A stretch of DNA of 35,330 bases, from positions 1 through 35,330 of the IMG/VR virus record IMGVR_UViG_3300043464_000140; one strand, 5' to 3'. Under the pieces are notes generated by a model. The model searched no databases and was not told the origin of the DNA. It worked only from the letters and a program-made list of their open reading frames with translations. Shown here piece after piece: positions 181 through 32,809 of the stretch. Positions within the stretch are counted from its first letter, which is position 1. Every line of letters begins with the position of its first letter. The stretch comes from a virus. The translations under genes were made by a program, and so were the position numbers.

Positions 181-776
181 AAATCAACAAACATAAACAT
201 TCCAACGCCATTATCTTTAAGCCATGTTCCTGATGTATCGCCAGCAATGGTTACAGTTTTATATTCAAAAGTATTAGCAGAACTTATAGTAAAGTTTGTT
301 ACATAACTTCTATCTAGTCCGTTGTTTGATATTGCAACCGAATAAGTGCCTGTAACGCTTGAACGCACCCAAAAAGATACTGTTACTGTTTTAGCATCAG
401 CAGTTCCCCAACCTAAATCGGCAACATTAAACCCTTCAATTTGCTGATTAAAAATTGATACTTGCCCTGATGTTGGAGATGCTCCTGTGCCTACAGTAAC
501 GATAACACTATTTATAAAACCAGCAGGTGCTGTTGTTGAGCGTTGAGTAGTATGTCCTGAACCTTGTGCAATACGAACTTGGAATCTATCAACAGGATAT
601 ACAGGGCTACTTCCTACACTAATAGAAGCACCAGCATTACGCTGGTCAATCACCATCGCACCATTGATGATTCTTGACTTCATATTTACAGAAGGTGTAA
701 CTGCATTAGCGGATATAGCACCGCTATACATCGGTGTCGTAATTCCGTTTGTGCCGTCAATAGTTACTGGTGGCAT
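1..776 (-). CDS. Tail fibre protein, N-terminal part (continues across the circular junction)
   Basis: The gene starts at ATG 776 with a strong AAGGAG ribosome site and runs open to the window edge. The protein begins MPPVTIDGTNG and carries the fibre signatures NGAMVIDQRN, a YPVDRFQV segment, VSFWVRSS and YITGVQLEVG. These are typical of carbohydrate-binding, jelly-roll-like fibre tips in environmental phages (family knowledge). The frame continues exactly into the segment ending at 34796; joined, the gene is 1131 nt, or 376 residues. Its start overlaps the end of the upstream homing endonuclease by 13 nt. It probably contacts the host surface. Fibre identity is fairly secure; the receptor is unknown. 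Confidence 0.8.
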   Translation of the reverse strand, partial: MPPVTIDGTNGITTPMYSGAISANAVTPSVNMKSRIINGAMVIDQRNAGASISVGSSPVYPVDRFQVRIAQGSGHTTQRSTTAPAGFINSVIVTVGTGASPTSGQVSIFNQQIEGFNVADLGWGTADAKTVTVSFWVRSSVTGTYSVAISNNGLDRSYVTNFTISSANTFEYKTVTIAGDTSGTWLKDNGVGMFMFVDLGSGTDREATAGSWGAGWKTRTSGSVQLAATSGATFYITGVQLEVGSTATSFDYRPYGTE

Positions 777-1426
777 GATTGCTCCTTACGCTGTTGATGC
801 CATGCCTTTACAGCTTGGCTAATTTTTAATCTATCTTCATCTGTGTAAACACGCTTTGCTCTTGATGCTCTCATCTTAGCCTTTGTTTCTTCGGACATCT
901 TTTTACCTTTGTTAGGATGCACCTCAAGCGAATCCCAATGCTTACGCTGTGATTCACGCATCTTGGCTTTGGTTTCTTCGGATGCTTGTTTACCAAGATT
1001 ATGCCCAACACGACCTTTAAGGGCTTCTGAGAGCTTTCTTTTGCCTTCCTCAGGATAAGCCTTGCCTTTCATGCCCGACCTACTGCCAAGCCGTCTAGTA
1101 TGGATTCTGCCAGTCAATGCTAGGCTATGCTTGCGTCTGCGTTCTTCAGTCCATGTAGAGCCTTCAGAACCGCCCAATTCAATATTGTAGCCATTAGGTA
1201 CTATTGTATCCAATACCGCTATCCAAAAGCGTTCTACTGCGTTTAGCGTGGCTCTATTTTCAATACTTGTACAGAGTGGTTCGTAGTCAAAGTTATCTTT
1301 GCCATGTAGCTTATACGCACTTTTCATAATGCGACCATGCCCAATCGGTAGATGTGGGTTGATAGTCTGCCCGACATATTGCTTGCCGTTTAGCTTATTG
1401 GAAACTAAGTAAACTTGTGCGTTCAC
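764..1426 (-). CDS. GIY-YIG homing endonuclease (free-standing)
   Basis: This 220-residue protein has an N-terminal GIY-YIG nuclease domain: VYLVSNKLNG near residues 5-14, then YVGQT at 18-22, a conserved E in ERFW and the GYNIELGG segment near 80-87. The C-terminal half carries about five short repeats of the type S-E-E-T-K-A-K-M-R, resembling NUMOD3 DNA-binding modules of phage-encoded homing enzymes. The start is GTG at 1426, with AGGAG inside the end of the preceding gene. The stop overlaps the following fibre gene. It is inserted between fibre-module genes with no intron boundary recognisable, so it is a free-standing mobile gene expected to cut a related allele lacking it. The family call is strong; the target site is unknown. 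Confidence 0.88.
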   Translation of the reverse strand: MNAQVYLVSNKLNGKQYVGQTINPHLPIGHGRIMKSAYKLHGKDNFDYEPLCTSIENRATLNAVERFWIAVLDTIVPNGYNIELGGSEGSTWTEERRRKHSLALTGRIHTRRLGSRSGMKGKAYPEEGKRKLSEALKGRVGHNLGKQASEETKAKMRESQRKHWDSLEVHPNKGKKMSEETKAKMRASRAKRVYTDEDRLKISQAVKAWHQQRKEQSCHQ

Positions 1427-6919: not shown

Positions 6920-7645
6920 CTAAACCTCTGTAATTTGACGAATTTTGTTTATTTCTGCTGTTACTACATTATCGATTCTTTTTAGCAAATTGACTACTGC
7001 TTCGTGCTGTTGTGGGTAATGCTTTTTAATGTACTCAAAGCGTTGTTTACTGTCAGCAATATAAGCGGTGCAATTCCAACAATCTAGGCTAGAGTGCGAC
7101 ATCGATAGACGCTCGGTAATTTCAATGTCTTTGCTCTTTAGGTACTCGACTACATCTTGGTCAGACCAATGCAGTATTGGAAAAACATATTCAATGCCAT
7201 CAATGACTTCACCTGACTTAATAGGGTTTTTGTGTGACTCGGACTGTCTTTGACCCCGAACAACGCAGGTAATCCCTAGTTCTTGTATCTTTTGGTGCGC
7301 TGGTATCCATTGGTTCTCAGCACAGCAATCAAAGTAAGTGCGTAATTTAATGTCTTTTTGGCTTGTAACTGCTTGTCCAATATTGCTGAAATTGACAGGT
7401 AATATGTCTACAGGGTGACCGTTTACCTCTAACGATAACGGCTGGTTTGTGCGAACTTCTACAAAATTAGGAACATTTAACTGATCCATGTAATCTTCGA
7501 TTTCAGGGAAGTTTGCACCTGTATTGACCCATATTAGGGTCATTTTGTCTAAATAATCACGATATAACTCTAAACACGCAAGCGAATCTCTACCGCCTGA
7601 AAACATCAAGGCAATCTTTTCATGGCGGTTAAAAAAGTCTTGCAT
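6920..7645 (-). CDS. PAPS/APS reductase-like PP-loop protein with [4Fe-4S] cysteine motif
   Basis: This 241-residue protein has an N-terminal PP-loop (SGGRDS, residues 16-21) typical of adenylyl-binding enzymes of the CysH/DndC group. Cys107-Cys108 and Cys189-x-x-Cys192 fit the CC-X80-CxxC pattern that ligates a [4Fe-4S] cluster in assimilatory APS reductases. The C-terminal ECG(I/L)H catalytic-cysteine tail of true reductases is absent, so sulphonucleotide reduction is uncertain; a sulphur-transfer or modification role is possible. It is embedded among virion genes: its start overlaps the upstream stop (TAATG). It is a likely auxiliary metabolic gene. The fold call is strong, the substrate unknown. 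Confidence 0.82.
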   Translation of the reverse strand: MQDFFNRHEKIALMFSGGRDSLACLELYRDYLDKMTLIWVNTGANFPEIEDYMDQLNVPNFVEVRTNQPLSLEVNGHPVDILPVNFSNIGQAVTSQKDIKLRTYFDCCAENQWIPAHQKIQELGITCVVRGQRQSESHKNPIKSGEVIDGIEYVFPILHWSDQDVVEYLKSKDIEITERLSMSHSSLDCWNCTAYIADSKQRFEYIKKHYPQQHEAVVNLLKRIDNVVTAEINKIRQITEV

Positions 7646-13600: not shown

Positions 13601-13614
13601 TTAAGTTAAGTTAA
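13601..13614. promoter_or_regulatory. TTAAGTTAAGTTAA motif upstream of capsid gene
   Basis: The same 14-mer occurs in the early rightward promoter at 28895-28908, and a one-base variant occurs at 22516-22529 near the terminase promoter. Here it lies just upstream of the capsid ribosome site and overlaps the scaffold stop codon. No convincing -35/-10 pair was identified. It may be an operator or pause site, or a chance match. Confidence 0.3.
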
Positions 13615-20847: not shown

Positions 20848-22197
20848 TTAAATTCTCCTGTAAGTTGATTTAGGTGTTTGCTTCCACAATTCGTTTAGGG
20901 TTACTTCGTTTTCCCCGACAGATACGCCTTTAACCCTTGTATCTTTGAGGATAGGGCTATCTTCATCTTTCCAAACAATGCTGAGATAACGCATCGCATC
21001 GCTAGAGTGTGATGTCCAATCATGCTTCGGGCGATCTCTAAATACTTTCTTATCATCATCCCACTCCCTTTGGTATTGGCGCAAACATTCAATTAGTTCG
21101 TCACACTTATTATCGAACCAAGCACGGGTTAATGCAAGTCTTGTAGCTTGTATTCCATCCTGAAGTGATAGGTTTGGAACAATTTTTAGCTTGTTTATGT
21201 CAATTTTTGTCGCAATTTGTTCGATTATGCTCTTGCCACCACTAGCCAAGGTTTTAGCCCTAGCGTCATGGGGCAGGTAGTGATAGCCATACTTGTACCC
21301 GTATTCATCCTCTTTCTGCGCTAGTAGTCCAAGGTAGTACGGAATGGCTTGACCGTTAGACATATGGTGGTCTAGCACCCGTATCTCACCGTATACCACC
21401 TGAAACCAAATCACAGCCGTGGAATCATTAAAGCCCAAGTCCCATACGGTATGGCATGGGAACATGGGGTCATAGTCCACCGTAGTAATGCGTTCAAGGT
21501 CTGTAATCCTACGCATCTCCTGACCGTAGAATGCGCCAAGTATTGCGGCTTCAAAGCTACACAAGAACTCTTGCTCGTACTGGTTAGCTGACATAGATTG
21601 CTGTGCGTCTAAGAGTTCAGCTTCAGGCAATAATCCTGATTGGTCTGCTCTTAGGGTCTTGACATACCAGTTTGGGTTCTTTTGGGCTTCGTTATAAATG
21701 TCATAGAAGGCGTTATGCCCCTTGGGTGTACCGATAAAGGTAGCCCAGCCTTGGCGGTCTGTCAGCAATGGGCGAACAATCTCACCCCATAGCCTTGGCT
21801 TCATATCTGCGTACTCGTCTAAAACGACACCATCCAAGTATAGACCCCGTAAGGCATCGGGATTGTCTGCGCCAAATAGTCTGATCTTAGCCCCATTGAC
21901 TAACTCTATCCATAACTCAGATTGATTAGTCTTGACTATGGCTGGTTCTGCATATTTTAAAAGGTAGTCCCAAGCAATTGCCTTGGACTGGGAGTGGTAC
22001 GGGCTAATGTATGCATATCGGGCGTTTTCTTTCTTTTCCATGACTGCCCTACGGATCGTGTCTGCAATGGTCGCTACGGTCTTTCCTGCTCGTCTATGGC
22101 ATACCAGTACAGCCCAGCGTTGATCACGCTTGTGAAAGTCTATGAACGCATCCCGTGCCTTATAGGGATACTCATATTTGATTACTACTTCTTTCAA
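20848..22197 (-). CDS. terL: Terminase large subunit
   Basis: This 449-residue packaging motor has a Walker A variant CHRRAGKT (33-40), Walker B VVLDEYAD (124-131) and FIGTPKG coupling motif (154-160) in the ATPase half. A nuclease half carries the acidic residues of an RNase H-like fold (VWDLGFNDS near 251-259, PHDARAK near 310, SSDAMRYL near 405). It cuts concatemeric DNA and pumps it through the portal. The start is TTG at 22197, sharing TTGA with the terS stop, so expression is probably coupled; no ATG occurs before about residue 53. The family call is secure. Confidence 0.93.
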   Translation of the reverse strand: MKEVVIKYEYPYKARDAFIDFHKRDQRWAVLVCHRRAGKTVATIADTIRRAVMEKKENARYAYISPYHSQSKAIAWDYLLKYAEPAIVKTNQSELWIELVNGAKIRLFGADNPDALRGLYLDGVVLDEYADMKPRLWGEIVRPLLTDRQGWATFIGTPKGHNAFYDIYNEAQKNPNWYVKTLRADQSGLLPEAELLDAQQSMSANQYEQEFLCSFEAAILGAFYGQEMRRITDLERITTVDYDPMFPCHTVWDLGFNDSTAVIWFQVVYGEIRVLDHHMSNGQAIPYYLGLLAQKEDEYGYKYGYHYLPHDARAKTLASGGKSIIEQIATKIDINKLKIVPNLSLQDGIQATRLALTRAWFDNKCDELIECLRQYQREWDDDKKVFRDRPKHDWTSHSSDAMRYLSIVWKDEDSPILKDTRVKGVSVGENEVTLNELWKQTPKSTYRRI

Positions 22198-22496: not shown

Positions 22497-22528
22497 ACCT
22501 TACCCAAGTAGTTGATTAAGATAAGTTA

Positions 22529-22557
22529 ATTGTAGGCTATTTTTGATTATTAAACAA
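22529..22557 (-). promoter_or_regulatory. Candidate promoter for the terminase/late operon
   Basis: Leftward -35 TTGTTT (22557-22552), 17-nt spacer, -10 TACAAT (22534-22529), about 33 nt before the terS ATG. The -35 lies inside the end of the preceding gene. The sequence TTAAGATAAGTTAA (22516-22529) abuts the -10 and resembles the operator-like repeat at 28895. It is a reasonable sigma70-type match but is not supported by any other data. Confidence 0.45.
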
Positions 22558-25788: not shown

Positions 25789-26145
25789 TTATTTCAAGAA
25801 CTTAAGTTTATAAGTTGTGGAATTGATAAGATCTGCAATCTCATCAATAATATTTTGTAGTTCGCTGTCTTGTGGCAAGTCTTGGCGGGCTTCTTTAACA
25901 AAACTCTGCAGGGATTCCATGTAGCGAATTGGGTCTTTTGGCTGGTGGTAAACACTTGGAAAAGCGGTAAATTTGCCGTACTTCCCCATATAGGATTCAG
26001 CAAAGGTATCGGTTAGGTTTACGATGCTGTCGTAATATTTGGCAAGGGCTTTGTGTTTGGCGTAAGAATCAGTAGACCAATGGAAAAAATGCGTGTTGGT
26101 CGCAGAATGTAGCATTGTTGCTAGGAATAATGCACAGTTTTCCAT
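25789..26145 (-). CDS. Ferritin/Dps-like helical protein (DUF5856-like)
   Basis: This 118-residue protein is predicted helical, with LFLATMLHSATNTHFFHWSTDSYAKHKALAKYYDSIVNLTDTFAESYMG at residues 6-54. The order H-x-x-H-W, A-x-H-K-A-L-x-x-Y-Y-D-x-I and D-T-F-A-E-S matches the metal-site layout of Dps/ferritin-like proteins (His on helix A, then H/D/E on helix B). It also resembles a family seen in T4-like cyanophages (DUF5856, from memory). It is shorter than bacterial Dps. It might bind iron or DNA. ATG 26145 has AAGGAT upstream. Confidence 0.6.
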   Translation of the reverse strand: MENCALFLATMLHSATNTHFFHWSTDSYAKHKALAKYYDSIVNLTDTFAESYMGKYGKFTAFPSVYHQPKDPIRYMESLQSFVKEARQDLPQDSELQNIIDEIADLINSTTYKLKFLK

Positions 26146-26153
26146 ACAAATCC

Positions 26154-26522
26154 TTATGTAATGGGTGTAGTTTCCTCTATTTTATCAATAACTACAAGAC
26201 AACCGCCACCTTTTTTTATTGCGCCACGCTGTACCATCAACACATCAATTTGTTCATCGTTATCAAATACACCAGCATCGGCTAGGGCATCCCAAAGGGC
26301 TTTAATTCGGTTATCGATGTCTTGCTTGCGTCTGTCTTTTGGGTACAGGGTGACCTGCATTTCTAGGCGGGCAGTACCTAGTTTGGGAACTTTCCACTCC
26401 ACCACATAATCGCTAACTTTTTCTTTAAACTCTTTTCCTGCCTTGCTGATATAACGCCTGTGTCCATGACTCCCCCAGTAATGATTGACGGATGGGGGTA
26501 GGGGTAGGTTTAGAATCAACAT
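26154..26522 (-). CDS. rusA: RusA-type Holliday junction resolvase
   Basis: This 122-residue endonuclease has PPSVNHYWG at 9-17 and RRKQDIDNRIKALWDAL at 64-80. D68, D70, K74 and D89 correspond, with a constant offset of two, to the catalytic D70, D72, K76 and D91 of E. coli RusA. It resolves four-way junctions as a dimer, removing branches from replicating or recombining phage DNA before packaging. It lies next to a YbcO-like gene, an association also seen in lambdoid prophages such as DLP12. Secure call. Confidence 0.93.
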   Translation of the reverse strand: MLILNLPLPPSVNHYWGSHGHRRYISKAGKEFKEKVSDYVVEWKVPKLGTARLEMQVTLYPKDRRKQDIDNRIKALWDALADAGVFDNDEQIDVLMVQRGAIKKGGGCLVVIDKIEETTPIT

Positions 26523-26563
26523 TAAGAGAGTTTAACAATTCCACGGTGTCTTGGGTCATTTGT

Positions 26564-26860
26564 TCAAAACTTGGTATATAAAAACCCCGACTCGAATAAG
26601 AGGGCAATCGTCTTTCGGTGCGCTTCTTCCCACCTACCCACTCTCTCTGTTTTGCTAAGTGTTGCACCTTGGTCGATTTCTGTGTGACAGGTGTAGCAGA
26701 GTGATGCGATTCTGTAATCGTGTGCTTTGAGTCCACGGCCTTTTCCATCCCTTAGTTGATTTGAGTGTGCGGCAACCACTGTGCCATCTGTAGCCCCGCA
26801 ATGGGTGCAGGGGAAGCTTCTAGCTATCTCCAGTAAGCTTTTATTACGATACATTGGCAT
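26564..26860 (-). CDS. YbcO-like (DUF1364) putative HNH-type nuclease
   Basis: This 98-residue protein has a compact zinc/HNH-like arrangement: C18-T-H-C21, VVAAHSNQLRDGKGRGLKAHD (His32, Gly-rich loop, Asp48) and C55-Y-T-C58-H59-x-E-I-D. This is the pattern of YbcO/DUF1364 nucleases. It precedes rusA, as in lambdoid prophages, suggesting joint work in DNA recombination. The start overlaps the 55-codon gene upstream by 17 nt; a second ATG is two codons downstream. Confidence 0.8.
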   Translation of the reverse strand: MPMYRNKSLLEIARSFPCTHCGATDGTVVAAHSNQLRDGKGRGLKAHDYRIASLCYTCHTEIDQGATLSKTERVGRWEEAHRKTIALLFESGFLYTKF

Positions 26861-27011
26861 GATCCACGCTGGCTTGTTCTAGCTTTACAGCGGATTCTGC
26901 AATGTCTACCGCAATCTCCATCATCTGTATGGCGTTGTTGCTTTTTAGGGCATCGTCATAGTGACGGACTAGGGTTCTAAGAACCTGAAACTCGTTGAGT
27001 AATTCAATCAT
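26844..27011 (-). CDS. Small helical protein (55 aa)
   Basis: ATG at 27011 overlaps the upstream stop as ATGA and the frame runs 55 codons to TAA at 26846-26844. The protein begins MIELLNEFQVLRTLVRHYDD and is a continuous amphipathic helix pattern without cysteines or membrane segments. Its end overlaps the YbcO-like start. It fills an otherwise empty 147-nt gap in a cluster where every gene is coupled, which supports real coding. No function is recognised. Confidence 0.6.
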   Translation of the reverse strand: MIELLNEFQVLRTLVRHYDDALKSNNAIQMMEIAVDIAESAVKLEQASVDHANVS

Positions 27012-27337
27012 TTTAAAATCCGATCTTGGTTACGGTTAGATACTTCTAAGGTCTGCCATGTAGCGTGGCGTAGTCTTGCGGCTTCTAGTTCCCACTTCAG
27101 CTTTTCAGCGTTCTCGGTCGCTACCCCAATAGCCTTGCATAAGTCTTGGTAGTCTTGGCTGGCGTATGCTTCCCGTTCCTGCGCCCCAATAGTCTGCTCA
27201 CCTGACTTCTGCATCATTATGGCTTTTAGACTGCTTTTAAAGGTTTCTAGCTGGGCTAAATCACCCTTGGCGGATGCGTACTTACCAGCGTTATCAAGGA
27301 TAAAGTCTATACATTTATTCGGGTCTATTTCTCGCAT
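27008..27337 (-). CDS. Hypothetical helical protein
   Basis: This 109-residue charged, helix-rich protein contains IDFILDNAGKYASAKGDLAQLETFKSSLKAIMM followed by GAQEREAYASQDYQDL and a C-terminal KWELEAARLRHATWQTLE. The layout (A-x-A-K-x-x-L, E-R-E-A-Y-A-S) recalls small early proteins of siphophages and podophages near recombination genes, function unknown. ATG 27337 lies behind AAGGAAC; the end overlaps the next gene by 4 nt. Confidence 0.65.
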   Translation of the reverse strand: MREIDPNKCIDFILDNAGKYASAKGDLAQLETFKSSLKAIMMQKSGEQTIGAQEREAYASQDYQDLCKAIGVATENAEKLKWELEAARLRHATWQTLEVSNRNQDRILK

Positions 27338-27485
27338 ACAGTTCCTTTATTCGTTTTTTTACATCCGCTTCTGTGTCTTTATTTTGTTCAATTAATTCTT
27401 TGACCATATCCCAGTTCCTATAACGCTGGGCTATGGCTATGTAAGATTGGGCCAAATACTCAATCCTTTGTTTATAGCTGTTCAT
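27315..27485 (-). CDS. Small charged protein (56 aa)
   Basis: The frame from ATG 27485 to TAA 27317-27315 gives 56 residues (begins MNSYKQRIEYLAQSYIAIAQ, ends KELYARNRPE). It overlaps the upstream gene by 14 nt and the downstream start by 23 nt. It is probably two helices. The 134-nt gap between neighbours has no other reading. No family recognised; the coding call rests on continuity of the coupled cluster. Confidence 0.5.
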   Translation of the reverse strand: MNSYKQRIEYLAQSYIAIAQRYRNWDMVKELIEQNKDTEADVKKRIKELYARNRPE

Positions 27486-27849
27486 CTAATTGCTTAATCT
27501 TTTGGCTAATCCTAGCCCGCCATTGTTGCCACGCCTCACCAGCATAAGCAGGGCATCCGACTTCCTGCGCTTTACGGGCGGTCAGTTCCTCAGTCGAGTA
27601 CCACGGTAATTCGGGTTTTTTGTTGGGTTCTAGGTCAATCTCGTCAGTCCAGCGTTCAGCGTTTAAGAACGAGGCAGGGTACGGGATGTAGTCTTTTTGG
27701 GTTTCCTTGATCTTCCAATATTTAAGGTAGTTTGGCATGGCTTCTAGGCATTCTTTTTGCTGGATAGGGGTTAGCCTATTCCATGCCCGTTCAGCGTCTT
27801 TGCGCCCCATTTTACGGGGGTATAGGGAGTAGAAATCTTGAAAGGTCAT
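27472..27849 (-). CDS. Hypothetical protein with YP-(R/K)-K...AW motif (replication-associated type)
   Basis: From the internal ATG 27849 the product is 125 residues, beginning MTFQDFYSLYPRKMGRKDAERAWNRL. The F-x-x-Y-P-x-K-x-x-K-x-x-A-x-x-A-W-x-x-L pattern is found at the N-termini of many phage replication-associated and DnaT/DnaC-neighbour proteins. I prefer this start to the upstream frame (27975) because the upstream part would encode a Cys/Asn-rich sequence antisense to nothing useful, while a small membrane peptide ends exactly at this ATG (ATGA). No ATPase motif is present. Confidence 0.65.
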   Translation of the reverse strand: MTFQDFYSLYPRKMGRKDAERAWNRLTPIQQKECLEAMPNYLKYWKIKETQKDYIPYPASFLNAERWTDEIDLEPNKKPELPWYSTEELTARKAQEVGCPAYAGEAWQQWRARISQKIKQLDEQL

Positions 27850-27947
27850 TTGTTCATCCAGTAATAAAGAAATGCGGCAATTATCATAAAAGTAGCAAAT
27901 ACAATAAATGTCGCTATTGCAAAAAAGGTGATTATTGTTTCGATCAT
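27846..27947 (-). CDS. 33-residue membrane microprotein
   Basis: ATG 27947 follows GGAGAAATTA (a good ribosome site) and shares one base with the previous stop (TAATG). The TGA at 27848-27846 overlaps the next ATG (ATGA). The peptide begins MIETIITFFAIATFIVFATF and is almost wholly hydrophobic (residues 4-28, a single membrane helix) with a short polar end YYWMNK. Coupling at both ends argues that it is translated. It is probably inserted in the inner membrane; it could be a toxin-like, exclusion or host-takeover peptide, but nothing in the sequence decides this. Confidence 0.6.
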   Translation of the reverse strand: MIETIITFFAIATFIVFATFMIIAAFLYYWMNK

Positions 27948-28123
27948 TAATTTCTCCAACGCATTGGTTGGTCATTTTTGGTTAATGCAGAAAAATGGCT
28001 GATTCTAATTTCAGTTGTTGATTTCCATTTAACCAAACCATCTTCGTCTTGGTCTTTAATTACATGACCATGACTACCCTCTTGGTGTTTTACTCTATCG
28101 CCTTCTTTAAACTGATATTCCAT
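27947..28123 (-). CDS. Small beta-barrel-like protein (58 aa), first gene of leftward early operon
   Basis: ATG 28123 to TAA 27949-27947, 58 residues, beginning MEYQFKEGDRVKHQEGSHGHV and continuing with KDQDEDGLVKWKSTTEIR. The pattern G-D-R-V-K-H-x-x-G-x-x-G-x-V-x-x-x-x-D-x-D-G-x-V-x-V-K-W is that of a small SH3/KOW-like fold. It starts about 24 nt after the predicted transcription start at 28147 and is the first gene of the leftward operon. Function unknown; possibly a small adaptor binding a host protein. Confidence 0.6.
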   Translation of the reverse strand: MEYQFKEGDRVKHQEGSHGHVIKDQDEDGLVKWKSTTEIRISHFSALTKNDQPMRWRN

Positions 28124-28146
28124 TTTCTATCTCACTTTTAATTAAG

Positions 28147-28182
28147 TGTTACCAGTTTATTAAGGTAGCTTAACCATGTCAA
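28147..28182 (-). promoter_or_regulatory. Leftward promoter with operator-like palindrome and 5' hairpin
   Basis: Leftward -35 TTGACA (28182-28177), 17-nt spacer, -10 TAAACT (28159-28154), predicted +1 A at 28147. The spacer holds TTAAG-N4-CTTAA (28160-28173). The transcript would start with ACTT-AATTAA-AAGT, a 4-bp hairpin whose first base is +1. The same design occurs at 28883-28918 and 31503-31539. It drives the 28123 to 25116 gene cluster. Confidence 0.72.
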
Positions 28183-28497
28183 CAGTTATTTTATAGGGAT
28201 TTACCCTAAGTGTTGCTTTTTTAATACGAGATTGCTAGATTTTGAGGACACACCTATCCCTAGCATGAGGAATAGGTGTTATTTACGATCTTGCTGAGTT
28301 TGTCGGTTCATATTGCTTCGATGTCTTTGTCGTGCCTAGGTCTGTCTTTATCACATCATCGGTCTATCCGTACAGTACGGTTCTCTTAGGTAGCCAAGCA
28401 ATAACGGCTAAATGAGGCGCATTTGCGCTAGTAGTTTCTAGGGGTATTTACAGCCTTTACCGTAGCAACACCAATGAGTACGGGCTAGGCAGAATAG

Positions 28498-28513
28498 AAA
28501 AACCCCTTGGGGT
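28498..28513 (-). terminator. Short hairpin-plus-T terminator for the regulator gene
   Basis: On the leftward strand ACCCC-AA-GGGGT is followed by TTTTCT. It is 128 nt after the regulator stop at 28641, so it could end that transcript. The stem is only 5 bp with a 2-nt loop (or 4 bp with 4 nt), so its strength is uncertain. The same bases also form part of the larger structured element. Confidence 0.4.
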
Positions 28514-28628
28514 AGCTCTAAGTTGATACCGCTTAATAAATGGGTCAACAGCATTTATTAAACGCTCAAAGCTACCTCAAAGGGTCTTGAGGGTTGACCA
28601 ATATAACTACGCAGGTATCAATCTGCGT
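28502..28628. other. Candidate structured RNA or origin element with nested stems and pseudoknot
   Basis: Outer stem: 28507-28517 pairs with 28570-28580, 11 bp including one G-U. Inner hairpin: TTAATAAATG (28533-28542) with CATTTATTAA (28552-28561), 10 bp perfect, loop GGTCAACAG. The loop's GGTCAAC (28543-28549) is complementary to GTTGACC (28593-28599). TTGATACC (28523-28530) is complementary to GGTATCAA (28614-28621), but the latter also lies in a competing hairpin ACGCAG/CTGCGT (28609-28614 and 28623-28628). Alternatives and a pseudoknot suggest a switch-like RNA or an origin. Confidence 0.45.
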
Positions 28629-28640
28629 CAACAGTATACA

Positions 28641-28862
28641 TCAATCTAATTCAGGCCAAATTAATTTATAACTTTCAGGAAATAGGGTCTTTCGGTTTAC
28701 TAGCCCGTGACTTTGTTTCTCAAGGGTTGCGGCTAGGATCACCAGCTTATCGTAGGGTATGTCCCCGTTTTGCCACATGGATACGGCAGGAACGCTGATA
28801 TTTAGCAATTTAGCAACCTTGGTAGGGCCACCCAATAAACGAATGATAGCGACTGAGTTCAT
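28641..28862 (-). CDS. P22-Cro/YdaS-type helix-turn-helix regulator
   Basis: From ATG 28862 the product is 73 residues. IIRLLGGPTKVAKLLNISVPAVSMWQNGDIPYDKL contains a helix-turn-helix (about residues 13-32), and NRKTLFPESYKLIWPE near the end is the C-terminal signature of the P22 Cro/YdaS family. An upstream ATG at 28877 adds five residues. CTTAAC at 28870-28875 lies next to the start, suggesting autorepression. It is the only recognisable repressor gene, placed divergently from the early operon. No larger CI-like partner or integrase is seen, so lysogeny is unproven. Confidence 0.82.
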   Translation of the reverse strand: MNSVAIIRLLGGPTKVAKLLNISVPAVSMWQNGDIPYDKLVILAATLEKQSHGLVNRKTLFPESYKLIWPELD

Positions 28863-28882
28863 AAGGTATCTTAACATATTTC

Positions 28883-28918
28883 TTGCATTGTTTGTTAAGT
28901 TAAGTTAATATGGGTGTA
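28883..28918 (+). promoter_or_regulatory. Rightward early promoter with operator-like repeat and 5' hairpin
   Basis: -35 TTGCAT (28883-28888), 17-nt spacer, -10 TAATAT (28906-28911), predicted +1 A at 28918. GTTAAGTTAAGTTAA (28894-28908) occupies the spacer. The transcript would start with ACGG-TATGTG-CCGT, a hairpin beginning at +1. The bases CTTGCATTGTT are identical to those in the promoter at 31502-31512. It faces the regulator gene and drives the operon from 28950. The gene's first usable start is therefore 28950, not the GTG at 28914. Confidence 0.75.
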
Positions 28919-28949
28919 CGGTATGTGCCGTGATAACAGGAGAACTCTT

Positions 28950-29159
28950 ATGAGTGAAATAGAATCGCAAACAAATGACTTACTTCAATTACAGGGTCAG
29001 CTAGAAAAAATTTTTGATGTACTAGAAGGTGGCTCTGATCTATCCAAGGAACAAATTGACTTACTGCGCTATGGCTGTGGCTTTGCGCCAGTTAATCGTC
29101 AGCGTGATTTTTTACAAGGTGTATTTGCAGACCTTAACCCATACGGGAGATCAATATGA
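28950..29159 (+). CDS. Small acidic early protein
   Basis: This 69-residue protein starts at ATG 28950, behind AGGAG and about 32 nt after the predicted promoter start. It is an acidic, helical protein (NDLLQLQGQLEKIFDVLEGGSDL) with a C-terminal YGRSI. It overlaps the next gene by 4 nt (ATGA). No domain recognised. The GTG at 28914 in the same frame lies before the predicted +1, so I discarded it. Confidence 0.65.
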   Translation: MSEIESQTNDLLQLQGQLEKIFDVLEGGSDLSKEQIDLLRYGCGFAPVNRQRDFLQGVFADLNPYGRSI

Positions 29160-29950
29160 CCCCACAAGTACAGTTAGTAACGCCTGAAATGGCAAAGGTT
29201 TATCTATCCAAAAACACCGATAACCGCCAGCAAAGGGGTTGGTATGTGTCTTGTCTAGCCAAAGCTATCAAGCGTGGTGATTGGATATTGACCCATCAAG
29301 GCGTAGCCTTCTCTGAGTCAGGCAAACTGATTGACGGGCAACACCGTCTAGAAGCTATTGTAGAAGCCGATACGCCCGTGCAGATGCTTGTCACCACTGG
29401 CGTGAGCAACGATGCTTACAAGGTCTTAGATAACGGCATTAAGCGTACATTGTCAGACCTGACAGGCATTAATGTTAGGACTACCGAGGTATGCCGTATC
29501 TTGGCTAGATTGGTCTACGGTGGTAATTCTGTTACTACCGCAGAAGAATGCCTAGAAATCTATAACACGGGTGTAGGAGAGGTATCCGATAGCCTAGTCG
29601 AGTATTGCGGTAAACAGATTAAAGTCTATTCCTCTGCACCTATGAGGACTGCGGCAGTCTGTTTAATCCTTGATGGGTATAACCAAAACTACATTAAGAA
29701 CCTGTACGCAAACCTTTGTCACCAGCAATTTAACGAACTGCCTAATGTAGCGCAAAACTTTATTCGTCAGGTTACCGATGGCAGGGTCAGCGCAAACAAG
29801 AAGTCAAACCTACTAGCACGGGGTCTAAAAGTATTTAATCCTGAGTATCAAGATGTAGCTAGACTTCAGATAAGTGATTCAGAAGAAACTGCCGCTAATG
29901 CGTATTGCAGAACCATTGTTAGAAACCTATTAACGAAAGAGAAAAAATGA
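29156..29950 (+). CDS. DGQHRL-motif (ParB/Srx-like) protein
   Basis: This 264-residue protein has LSKNTDNRQQRGWYVSCLAKAIKRGDW in residues 17-43 and KLIDGQHRLEAIVEADTPV at 57-75. The DGQHR motif (60-65 here) characterises the ParB/sulfiredoxin-like fold found in many phages and some DNA-modification systems such as DndB and DpdB-like proteins. The rest is helical. Its role could be nucleotide-dependent DNA handling or modification control, not proven. It is the second gene of the early operon, coupled to its neighbours at both ends. Confidence 0.72.
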   Translation: MTPQVQLVTPEMAKVYLSKNTDNRQQRGWYVSCLAKAIKRGDWILTHQGVAFSESGKLIDGQHRLEAIVEADTPVQMLVTTGVSNDAYKVLDNGIKRTLSDLTGINVRTTEVCRILARLVYGGNSVTTAEECLEIYNTGVGEVSDSLVEYCGKQIKVYSSAPMRTAAVCLILDGYNQNYIKNLYANLCHQQFNELPNVAQNFIRQVTDGRVSANKKSNLLARGLKVFNPEYQDVARLQISDSEETAANAYCRTIVRNLLTKEKK

Positions 29951-30564
29951 TTATTTCTGATACCCAACGAGATTTTAGAATTGCCCCTGCTGGCTTGCAT
30001 ATGGCTCGGCTTTATTCCGTTATCGACTTAGGCCATCAAGCTACCGAGTGGGCTGGAGAAACCAAGATCATGCACAAGGTCGTATTGACTTGGGAACTGC
30101 ACGGAGATGATGAGGATGGCAAACCATTACAGACAGACGATGGCAAGCCATTAATCGTATCTAAGCGGTATACCGTCAGCCTTGGAGATCAGGCACGATT
30201 ACGCCAAGACCTAGAAGCATGGTCAAACAAAAAAATGACCACCGAGGATCGTAAGAACTTTGACCTCAAGAACTTATTGGGTAAGTTCTGCATGGTCAAT
30301 ATTACGCACTCTGAAGATGGTAAGTACGCTAATATTTCAGGTATCAGCCCTGTTCCTAGCGCACTGCGTAACGCCCAGCCTGAAGGTGTTAACCCCACCA
30401 AAATCTTTTGGCTACAAAGTTATAAGCAGGAAGAATACGATGCGCTACCTAAGTATTACAAAGAAAAGATAACGGAAAGTAGTGAGTGGCGGGGTCAGCA
30501 GGAGCGTGAAAAGAATGCGCCCAAGCTGGCAGATGATGATGGTTTTGGCCCACCCCCATTCTAA
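29947..30564 (+). CDS. Single-stranded-DNA-binding-like protein (putative)
   Basis: This 205-residue protein has an OB-fold-like beginning (IAPAGLHMARLYSVIDLGHQATEW, MHKVVLTWELHGDD) and a second strand set (LLGKFCMVNITHSEDGKYANISGISPVP). It has a charged C-terminus rich in K and E, ending in an acidic DDDGFGPPPF tail, as in SSB proteins that contact partners through an acidic tip. Phage proteins with this PAGxHxARxxxxxDLG start are usually found beside RecB/Cas4-type nucleases, as here. SSB function is inferred. Confidence 0.65.
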   Translation: MIISDTQRDFRIAPAGLHMARLYSVIDLGHQATEWAGETKIMHKVVLTWELHGDDEDGKPLQTDDGKPLIVSKRYTVSLGDQARLRQDLEAWSNKKMTTEDRKNFDLKNLLGKFCMVNITHSEDGKYANISGISPVPSALRNAQPEGVNPTKIFWLQSYKQEEYDALPKYYKEKITESSEWRGQQEREKNAPKLADDDGFGPPPF

Positions 30565-30571
30565 GGAAACT

Positions 30572-31315
30572 ATGATAGTCAAGGAGAAATTAAGTGAATC
30601 AGGTCACTGGTATAAGAAAGACGGCACTCCAGCCTATACAGTCCACGGCAAGACTGGGGAGCGACCAGCAACGCTCCGTGACGCACGGAAACTCGGACTT
30701 TTGCCAAGTGTTACAACAATTAACGGAATGCTATCGAAAGCAGGGCTTGATACATGGAAGCAACAACAAGTCCTCTTAGCCGCATTGACTTTGCCTAGAC
30801 TGCCTGACGAACCTGAAGCCGATTGGTTAGCTAGGGTGATGCAGGATAGTAAGGCTACGGGCAGGGAAGCGGCAGAACGAGGTACTGCAATACACGGCAT
30901 CATCCAAACTTGGTTCGAGGGTGTGTATATGCCTGAAAAACCACCGTACATCAACGGCATCATAGAAGCTTTAGAGAACGCCTTTGGGAAGCAATTGTGG
31001 CTTTCAGAGCAGTCTTTTGGTCATCCGCTAGGGTATGGTGGCAAGTGTGACTTGATGGCTAGGGCGGGCTTTGTAGTCGATTTTAAGACCAAAGAAACCG
31101 ACTTGGATAAGGTGGATGTGTACTTTGAGCATGAGATGCAGTTAGCCGCCTACCGAGAGGGCCTAGGAGTACCAACTGCTAGGTGCGCTATCGTCTTTGT
31201 CAACGGTACGACCAATCAGGTCAAACTCATTGAAATTGAGCAGGATCGGCTTCAAAAGGGTTGGGAATGCTTTGAACATTTGTTACGGGTTTACCAAATA
31301 AAAAACGGCTTATAA
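30572..31315 (+). CDS. RecB/Cas4-type PD-(D/E)XK exonuclease
   Basis: From ATG 30572 (behind AAGGAAAC) the product is 247 residues. Motifs in order: RGTAIHG with His108, Glu146 in LSEQSFGHP, YGGKCDLM with Asp160, VVDFKTK with Asp170 and Lys172, and MQLAAYREGL with Gln190 and Tyr194. This is the full H-E-D-DxK-QxxxY series of RecB-family exonucleases. It probably resects DNA ends for recombination-dependent replication together with the SSB-like protein; no RecT-like annealing protein is recognised, though the SSB-like gene may fill that place. The frame is open upstream to 30482, but without a usable ribosome site. Confidence 0.87.
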   Translation: MIVKEKLSESGHWYKKDGTPAYTVHGKTGERPATLRDARKLGLLPSVTTINGMLSKAGLDTWKQQQVLLAALTLPRLPDEPEADWLARVMQDSKATGREAAERGTAIHGIIQTWFEGVYMPEKPPYINGIIEALENAFGKQLWLSEQSFGHPLGYGGKCDLMARAGFVVDFKTKETDLDKVDVYFEHEMQLAAYREGLGVPTARCAIVFVNGTTNQVKLIEIEQDRLQKGWECFEHLLRVYQIKNGL

Positions 31316-31320
31316 TTAAA

Positions 31321-31369
31321 GTTCCTTCACGGGAACGGGGGAAAGCGCAAGCGAGTACCCCACTTTTTT
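31321..31369 (+). terminator. Double-hairpin terminator after exonuclease gene
   Basis: GTTCC-TTCACG-GGAAC (31321-31336) is followed by GGGG...CCCC (31338-31341 with 31358-31361) enclosing GC-GCAA-GC, a GNRA-type tetraloop, then AC and six T residues (31364-31369). It begins 6 nt after the exonuclease stop. It is probably the end of the early rightward operon, though the second hairpin has an internal loop and might act as a regulatory RNA instead. Confidence 0.6.
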
Positions 31370-31370
31370 A

Positions 31371-31502
31371 TGGGCGTTAAGCCGCCAAAGTAGGATGCAG
31401 TAATTAGGGAATTTTGCGGCTTTCTGCCCTATTGCTAGTAACTGCTAAATACTGCCCTGTTGTTTTTTTCCAAAACATAGGGTTTGTCCTAATAAAAATA
31501 CC
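31371..31502 (+). other. Untranslated leader-like region with inverted repeats
   Basis: There is no gene in this stretch. GGGC-gtt-AAGCCGC pairs with GCGGCTT-tct-GCCC (31372-31385 with 31416-31429). GATGCAGTAAT (31394-31404) is the exact complement of ATTACTGCATC (31536-31546), which lies in the 5' end of the next transcript. Read-through from the left could therefore pair with, and alter, the leader of the downstream operon. Confidence 0.45.
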
Positions 31503-31539
31503 TTGCATTGTTAAGATTACTTAACTTATACTGTCATTA
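31503..31539 (+). promoter_or_regulatory. Rightward promoter with perfect operator palindrome and 5' hairpin
   Basis: -35 TTGCAT (31503-31508), 18-nt spacer, -10 TATACT (31527-31532), predicted +1 A at 31539. The spacer contains the perfect palindrome GTTAAG-ATTA-CTTAAC (31510-31525). The transcript would begin ACTGC-ATCGG-GCAGT, a 5-bp hairpin starting at +1. It drives 31575-32809; AGGAG lies just before ATG 31575. It is the clearest member of the three-promoter set. Confidence 0.8.
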
Positions 31540-31574
31540 CTGCATCGGGCAGTGAGATAGAAAAGGAGAATCAA

Positions 31575-31853
31575 ATGCAAGTTTTAGACCTACAAATTAC
31601 CAAAGTTGACCAATTAGGTATGCTCTTGGCACAGATTGCTGACCTAGAAGCACAGGCAGAAGCACTCAAGACCGAACTCAAGCAAGAAGAAGGACACATC
31701 GAGGGTAACCTTTATAAAGCGTGTGTGACCTTATCCCAGCGCAAGACCGTAGATAACAAGGCTGTGTACGCAGAAGCCAATGTACCTGCCGAATTAATTG
31801 AGAAGCACACCAAGACCACCGCAGTTATTACCCTCAAAGTTACAGCCCGTTAA
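31575..31853 (+). CDS. Small coiled-coil early protein
   Basis: This 92-residue protein starts behind AAGGAG. It has an amphipathic helix LGMLLAQIADLEAQAEALKTELKQEEG, then a strand-turn region KACVTLSQRKTVDNKAVYAEANVPAELIEKHTK and a final strand TAVITLKVTAR. This helix plus basic hairpin arrangement is common in small early proteins of environmental podophages and siphophages, function unknown. It is the first gene of the operon. Confidence 0.7.
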   Translation: MQVLDLQITKVDQLGMLLAQIADLEAQAEALKTELKQEEGHIEGNLYKACVTLSQRKTVDNKAVYAEANVPAELIEKHTKTTAVITLKVTAR

Positions 31854-31858
31854 TCAAC

Positions 31859-31872
31859 GCCCCTTCGGGGGC
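31859..31872 (+). other. GCCCC-TTCG-GGGGC hairpin between two genes
   Basis: A 5-bp all-GC stem with a UUCG tetraloop, one of the most stable RNA hairpins known, lies six bases after the stop of the coiled-coil gene and 12 nt before the lipoprotein ATG. There is no long T run, so it is probably an RNase-protection, processing or translation-attenuating element, not a terminator. Confidence 0.6.
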
Positions 31873-31884
31873 AGAAAGGTTTTT

Positions 31885-32136
31885 ATGAAGTATGTTTTGT
31901 TGCTAAGTACGCTAAGTCTTACCGCCTGTAGTTCGTTTGAACCACCCAATGTCAGCTTAGAAACTGACAAACAGGCGTATCACATGACACGGGCGCAAGT
32001 AATTCTAGGCATTAACGAGTGTGAGGATGCTGGCACACGCCCCGTAGTCATTACCGCCAAGCGCAGAATTAACGGGGTTACTACCGATGTACCCGTAGAA
32101 GTGACCTGCAATCCCCGTTATCGTATCTTTCAATAA
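31885..32136 (+). CDS. Small lipoprotein
   Basis: From ATG 31885 (AGAAAGG upstream) the product is 83 residues with a signal peptide MKYVLLLSTLSLTAC, whose L-T-A-C lipobox would give a lipidated Cys15. The mature part has PPNVSLETDKQAYHM and ends in a C-x-N-P-R-Y-R segment. It is expected to be anchored to the outer or inner membrane. Candidates are an o-spanin-like lysis protein or a superinfection-exclusion lipoprotein. The frame is open upstream to 31798 but that part overlaps the preceding gene. Confidence 0.7.
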   Translation: MKYVLLLSTLSLTACSSFEPPNVSLETDKQAYHMTRAQVILGINECEDAGTRPVVITAKRRINGVTTDVPVEVTCNPRYRIFQ

Positions 32137-32145
32137 GGAGTCATC

Positions 32146-32388
32146 ATGTTACAGAGTGAACGAGATGCAGAGTTATTTTATGAGGCCCAGCGCAAGTTTA
32201 CTGACCGCCAAAGGATGCTTGATAAGGGCTGGGGTGACCTAGATGCCTACAAGCGTTTACGGGATGCAGAAAAGAAGAAGGAGCGTATAGAGTCTATCCG
32301 TATGTTCCTCTTGGGTGGTTTGGCGGCAGTCCTATTTTGCGTACTATTCTTTGGTACTAACTACCTAATGCACGGCTATGCAATATAA
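32146..32388 (+). CDS. Small C-terminal-anchored membrane protein
   Basis: This 80-residue protein starts behind AAGGAG. The first 50 residues are charged and helical (YEAQRKFTDRQRMLDKGWGDLDAYKRLRDAEKKKER), followed by one membrane helix (IRMFLLGGLAAVLFCVLFFGTNY, about 50-72) and a short external tail. It is downstream of the lipoprotein and overlaps the next gene by 11 nt. It could be an i-spanin-like or exclusion protein; no family recognised. Confidence 0.65.
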   Translation: MLQSERDAELFYEAQRKFTDRQRMLDKGWGDLDAYKRLRDAEKKKERIESIRMFLLGGLAAVLFCVLFFGTNYLMHGYAI

Positions 32389-32809
32389 GAAGTTTGACCA
32401 AGCCCTGCACGATGCCTGTGACCCACCTGCCCGTGATGCGGTCGCTAGGTGGCTCAATAACCTTTGGTATATAGATGCCTTGCCGAACCCCGATAAATAC
32501 GCTGTAGACCTCATATTAAGCCGTAAAGGGGAGCATTTAGGGTATGCCGAGGTAGAGGTCAGGGATTGGGAGTTTTGCCCGTTTGATACGATCCACATAG
32601 CCCAGCGCAAGGATAAATTATTTAACCATCCTAGAACGACTATGTATGTGGTCAATAAACCCTTGACCCATGCCTACTGGATCAGGGCGAATAAGATTAA
32701 AGACTGCCCGTTAATAGAAGTACCAAACAGTGCGGTAGCCCGTGACGAATACTTCTACGATGTACCCAAAGACTTGTGGAAAATCGTAGACCTAACCGAC
32801 CTGTTCTAG
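32378..32809 (+). CDS. PD-(D/E)XK-like putative nuclease
   Basis: This 143-residue protein starts at ATG 32378, inside the previous gene. YAVDLILSRKGEHLGYAEVEVRDWE gives D44, E58 and E60, a D...E-x-E arrangement compatible with a diverged PD-(D/E)XK core, followed by IHIAQRKDKLFNHP and YVVNKPLTHAYWI. Such short D/E-x-E proteins are found in many phages, possibly acting in DNA end processing or host DNA restriction. The match is moderate; the final K is replaced by E. Its end overlaps the convergent endolysin gene by 4 nt. Confidence 0.6.
   Translation: MQYKKFDQALHDACDPPARDAVARWLNNLWYIDALPNPDKYAVDLILSRKGEHLGYAEVEVRDWEFCPFDTIHIAQRKDKLFNHPRTTMYVVNKPLTHAYWIRANKIKDCPLIEVPNSAVARDEYFYDVPKDLWKIVDLTDLF

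Follow-up and report, generated by a model that had tools for sequence, protein, structure and literature searches.

The 35,330-bp viral record IMGVR_UViG_3300043464_000140, analysed here over its whole length and referred to as the window, comes from a freshwater virus of bacteria that carries the same short mirror-image site at each of four early promoters. The core common to these promoter elements is the 14-mer dyad TTAAG-N4-CTTAA, which matches the core of the annotated C2 operators of phage P22; it is perfect at the promoters PL and PR2 and carries one mismatch at PR and at the start of cro, the gene for a P22-Cro-like protein that lies between the two early arms. Judging from sequence comparisons, we consider it highly probable that the four dyads are operators of this Cro and form a cI-less P22-type circuit, which would close both early arms, PR2 and cro itself.

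Dyads at the four early promoters

A first-pass annotation of the window had proposed a shared operator, GTTAAGN4CTTAAC, in the spacers of three early promoters. Re-reading of the sequence confirmed all of its coordinates and revealed the sites in all three spacers, with the core refined to TTAAGN4CTTAA. At PR, PR2 and most PL promoters of the relatives described below, the sigma-70 hexamers are good, the spacers have the normal sigma-70 length of 17-18 bp (17 bp in 73 of 79 distinct PR sequences of close relatives), and the operator ends at the -10 hexamer or within 3 bp of it. The number of sites had to be revised, as the hexamer CTTAAC at 28870-28875, which had been suggested to add autorepression, forms one half of a complete dyad (O_cro, one mismatch) abutting the cro start codon, making four sites instead of three and leaving the predicted autorepression in place. 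The O_cro half-site TTAAGAT contains an extended -10 element (TGtTAAGAT, 28876-28868) with the ATG following after 5 nucleotides (nt), and TGnTAAGAT is found 5-9 nt before an ATG in 84 of 98 distinct sequences of relatives. Because this element stands directly before the start codon, the cro mRNA is probably leaderless, and the double use of TTAAGAT would explain why O_cro, alone among the sites, is fixed for AT in the first two positions of N4.

Within the window, 11 copies of the 14-mer with up to one mismatch were counted versus 2.35 ± 1.6 expected, a number reached by none of 100 shuffles. In contrast, the 16-mer of the first-pass annotation, allowed three mismatches, was not enriched (27 versus 20.5 expected). 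Both perfect copies of the core lie inside promoters, and the remaining seven one-mismatch copies all lie away from early promoters. One of the one-mismatch sites, at 13601-13614 upstream of the capsid gene, was considered as a further operator and is treated as chance, since three of six relatives read lack the dyad and no promoter could be recognised; another is located at 22516-22529. The sequence CTTGCATTGTT, previously noted as an extra element shared by both rightward promoters, turned out to be the -35 hexamer plus the operator edge, and is not a separate element, because the PR -35 becomes TTGCTT or TTGACT in relatives.

On these sequences, we regard conservation in relatives as the decisive evidence. 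Relatives were collected via Cro and divided into close relatives (group A, counted where long enough to judge) and groups B and C, whose reference records, L083 and L082, respectively, encode Cro proteins 47% and 51% identical to that of the window. In group A, the dyad is perfect at PR2 in 59/59 and at PL in 74/77 relatives, and has at most one mismatch at PR in 107/107 (perfect in 55) and at O_cro in 106/107, whereas a Markov null predicts 0.004 perfect dyads in a range of 1,900 bp. The PR dyad is also perfect in more distant members (e.g. L065-L081). Over 64 distinct PL and 42 distinct PR2 sequences, which like all sequences compared here are not phylogenetically independent, the 10 arm positions show zero change, whereas 17 forms of N4 occur at each promoter and the flanks vary at about 40%. 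The distance from cro ranges from 636 to 2,050 bp for PL and from 1,762 to 3,275 bp for PR2 among the relatives, so that the position of the dyad is not inherited passively. The corresponding four positions in groups B and C have TTAAGN4CTTAA or TTAAGN4CTAAA, but the cro start has a weaker site there, with two mismatches in 6/7 group C and 5/21 group B loci. An unbiased scan for 5-4-5 dyads with one mismatch upstream of cro ranked TTAAG top or tied top in all three groups (100/102, 22/22 and 7/7). Searching 27 records end to end, as the first-pass annotation had proposed for its motif, revealed 0-3 perfect dyads per genome and no occurrence of a reversed control pattern; in the cI-less whole records the perfect dyads were, by locus coordinates, never more than about 3 kb from cro and thus confined to the early region. 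In one relative (L039), an HNH-type open reading frame (ORF) is inserted in frame between the operator with its start codon and cro, leaving the operator at the ATG that comes first in the transcript, possibly as an HNH-Cro fusion or a hijacked promoter.

The Cro protein and its probable half-sites

The product of cro matches Pfam P22_Cro (PF14549) with a modest score of 32.1 bits, above the gathering threshold of 30.2 (E 1e-7), and its structure model is all-helical with a predicted local distance difference test (pLDDT) of 81. Its recognition helix, SVPAVSMW, is unchanged in 14/14 aligned relatives. Across helix types, helices with A or P before AVS.W are mostly accompanied by TTAAG half-sites, and those with G at this position by CTTAG/TTTAG half-sites in nine of ten helix types, these being second-ranked in the tenth; the helix PPSVSGW and two similar helices go with TTAGG. 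Relatives collected via the early exonuclease instead of Cro kept the cro gene in all 31 cases with enough upstream DNA. Leaving aside loci that are too short, those among them without a perfect or CTAAA-type dyad have either another helix or TTCAG-CTTAA versions of the dyad: the TTAAG dyad is missing with the helices VTTQAVHRW (L416-L418, L420) and SPPAVCVW (L419, with TTAACCTACGTTAA near the PR2 place), and the TTCAG-CTTAA versions accompany SPAAVSMW (L400/L401). As the half-sites change with the recognition helix, Cro is likely the reader of the dyads, in line with its earlier nomination as the ligand.

Gene map and RNA features

The early genes span about 26-33 kb, with the leftward replication arm and the rightward recombination arm on either side of cro (Table 1). 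The terminase is about 40% identical to those of HTVC010P-type pelagiphages, which suggests a freshwater relative of the HTVC010P podovirus group, a likeness that does not fix the host. A host search in bacterial genomes gave as sole match a contig in a metagenome-assembled genome binned as Spartobacteria, probably a stray viral contig.

Table 1. Promoters, dyads, genes and RNA features of the window.
Feature	Positions	Strand	Description
PL	28154-28182	-	TTGACA (28182-28177), 17-bp spacer, TAAACT (28159-28154); replication-arm promoter
O_L	28160-28173	-	TTAAGCTACCTTAA; perfect dyad inside the PL spacer
PR	28883-28911	+	TTGCAT (28883-28888), 17 bp, TAATAT (28906-28911); recombination-arm promoter
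O_R	28895-28908	+	TTAAGTTAAGTTAA; one mismatch; 3-bp overlap with the PR -10
PR2	31503-31532	+	TTGCAT (31503-31508), 18 bp, TATACT (31527-31532); second recombination-arm promoter
O_R2	31511-31524	+	TTAAGATTACTTAA; perfect dyad; with flanks GTTAAGATTACTTAAC at 31510-31525
O_cro	28861-28874	-	TTAAGATACCTTAT (also read as ATAAGGTATCTTAA); one mismatch; abuts cro start codon
cro	28641-28862	-	73-aa P22-Cro/YdaS-like repressor (P0001); Pfam P22_Cro, PHROG transcriptional repressor/regulator families
Genes behind PL	26154-28123	-	small KOW/Tudor-like ORF, O-like replication protein, HNH, RusA
Genes behind PR	28941-31315	+	72-aa ORF, ParB-like-fold protein, phrog_862 protein, PD-(D/E)XK exonuclease
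Genes behind PR2	31575-32809	+	first is a 92-aa protein, weakly Mu-Gam/RecE-like
Post-cro RNA	28640-28498	-	structured RNA directly after cro
Variable stretch	28183-28497		between post-cro RNA and PL
PL leader hairpin	28133-28148	-	opens the leader
PR leader hairpin	28918-28933		opens the leader
PR2 leader hairpin	31537-31555		opens the leader
GIY-YIG homing endonuclease	764-1426		late region
PAPS-reductase-like gene	6920-7645		late region
Terminase	20848-22197
Dps/starvation-inducible-like protein	25789-26145		late region

A structured RNA directly follows cro. The cro stop carries an extended -10-like TGTATACT, and the RNA closes with an intrinsic terminator. In 20 relatives it comprises 40 pairs including one pseudoknot, with 97.5% of cells paired, and 18 pairs show compensatory change (87 double-change cells versus 24 in shuffles, 0/500). 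In most of the 20, a second pseudoknot is also re-formed from different sequences; no Rfam match was found for this RNA, and other relatives have other RNA types or genes in its place. The stretch between it and PL, apparently non-coding or a short ORF, exists in several unrelated versions (L002, L061, L062, L066, L069, L124). In addition, a small hairpin opens each early leader, with the stem present in 55/55 distinct PR2, 62/62 PR and 67/78 PL leaders and covarying between relatives. These hairpins, which may be mRNA-stabilising or nut-like elements, are joined in the PR2 and PL leaders by a common GTGAGATAGAAAA before the start.

Proposed circuit, alternatives and known systems

On infection, host RNA polymerase would transcribe the recombination genes from PR, the replication genes from PL, the second recombination-arm operon from PR2, and cro from its own promoter. 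Cro would then build up and form dimers, with one TTAAG half-site read by each subunit. As all dyads either sit in the gap from -35 to -10 or extend into the -10, the bound protein would exclude polymerase. All early promoters, including that of cro, would thereby be closed together, the perfect sites at PL and PR2 earlier and the weaker ones at PR and cro later. This arrangement matches the P22/lambda early region minus cI, with divergent arms back to back and cro first in the replication arm, and the circuit would work like the Cro turn-off of these phages.

Several observations weigh against this assignment. The PL dyad is missing in three close relatives (L131, L145, L153), the PR and cro sites of the window each deviate from the core by one mismatch, and the matches of the Cro model in the PDB (YdaS, Xfaso1 Cro, N15 Cro, P22 c2/Cro) are weak, the best having an E of 0.034. 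Some A-type helices are without a clear dyad (L219, L221). The relation between helix and half-site is a correlation among related sequences, and since cI presumably reads the same operators in temperate relatives, it is not proof for Cro alone. The dyads might be read by another protein, for example a repressor of phage or host origin, or CI from a resident prophage, with Cro a neighbour by chance. CI and Cro do share operators in temperate relatives (L189/G022, with TTAAG dyads between cI and cro), and the P22 sites are annotated as operators of C2. We nevertheless consider another reader unlikely, because almost every relative has a complete operator abutting the cro start codon, the dyads are lost or changed where the Cro helix has changed, and the window and 21 relatives yielded no S24 cI and no HTH_3 match over the cut-off. 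These 22 records also gave no tyrosine integrase and no serine resolvase; they are contigs of unstated completeness, in which absence of cI or integrase is not certain. In contrast, S24 cI was present in four of five L187-L203-type records tested.

The position of the sites inside promoter spacers would also suit a MerR-like mode, in which Cro or another spacer-bound protein activates instead of represses. MerR-type promoters have stretched spacers of 19-20 bp, whereas those of PR, PR2 and most PL measure 17-18 bp; moreover, three of the sites overlap or abut the -10, and the annotated role of P22 Cro is to turn early genes off, making activation very improbable. Still less credible is that AT-rich promoter composition yields TTAAG/CTTAA without any protein reader. 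Other one-mismatch copies do occur in the window by chance, but the invariance of the arms beside variable N4 and flanks already contradicts this view, as does the absence of the reversed pattern from whole records.

In the P22 record, both regions annotated with C2 operators, OL and OR, hold perfect TTAAGN4CTTAA sites (ATTTAAGACTTCTTAATT in OL; AGTTAAGTCATCTTAAAT in OR, with 2 bp between it and the c2 start codon). With the P22 operator core and a Cro of the same family (PF14549), the map of the window is P22-like with c2 missing: operators cover early promoters, one abuts the start codon of a regulator, and recombination and replication arms diverge from the control region. Unlike the window, P22 has c2 and three annotated operators at each of OL and OR; the window has one dyad per promoter and two further operator-bearing promoters, PL about 0.7 kb and PR2 about 2.6 kb from cro. 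Defining features of a lambdoid cI/cro switch were tested, and the early region is not such a switch, since PR directly adjoins cro with no divergent cI found, integrase and resolvase genes were likewise not found in the 22 records, and the operators do not form clusters of three. Temperate phages with P22/YdaS-type Cro (L187-L203 and the Acinetobacter phages L084) share a homologous Cro and 5-4-5 operators, but they differ in carrying several dyads upstream of cro, often with CTTAG, TTTAG or TTAGG half-sites, and in their cI, which in L084 is annotated beside cro. Among the telomere phages PY54 and phiKO2, PY54 Cro is described in the source passages as binding a single operator site, although these phages are described as temperate, with cI/cB and different operators (PMC4488713, PMC4997575). 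Mycobacteriophage L5-type stoperators resemble the present sites in that one phage repressor uses dispersed sites; in the source passages, however, this is an immunity repressor with many asymmetric genome-wide sites that also stop elongation (PMC9283540, PMC6550527), whereas the window has few symmetric sites, all at promoters. Among the titles and abstracts listed by searches of open-access papers, none described a comparable phage regulon run by Cro alone.

Cro is usually regarded as secondary to cI. In these viruses, a P22-type Cro has been kept together with its operators, in a fixed arrangement of four sites, with no cI or integrase found and down to Cro proteins about half identical. 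On balance, we lean towards the view that a widespread group of virulent freshwater viruses controls its entire early programme through Cro alone, in a stable circuit that lacks cI and has a single P22-type operator at each early promoter; this would not be a decaying remnant of lysogeny. Half-site and helix would have co-evolved within the group, and cross-repression by prophages with P22-type CI would be expected. The collection of relatives provides natural helix/half-site pairs from which the specificity of Cro might be decoded, and it predicts the prophages that could exclude these phages. The persistence of the layout suggests that Cro-only negative feedback of early transcription is itself under selection in phages that are abundant but uncultured.

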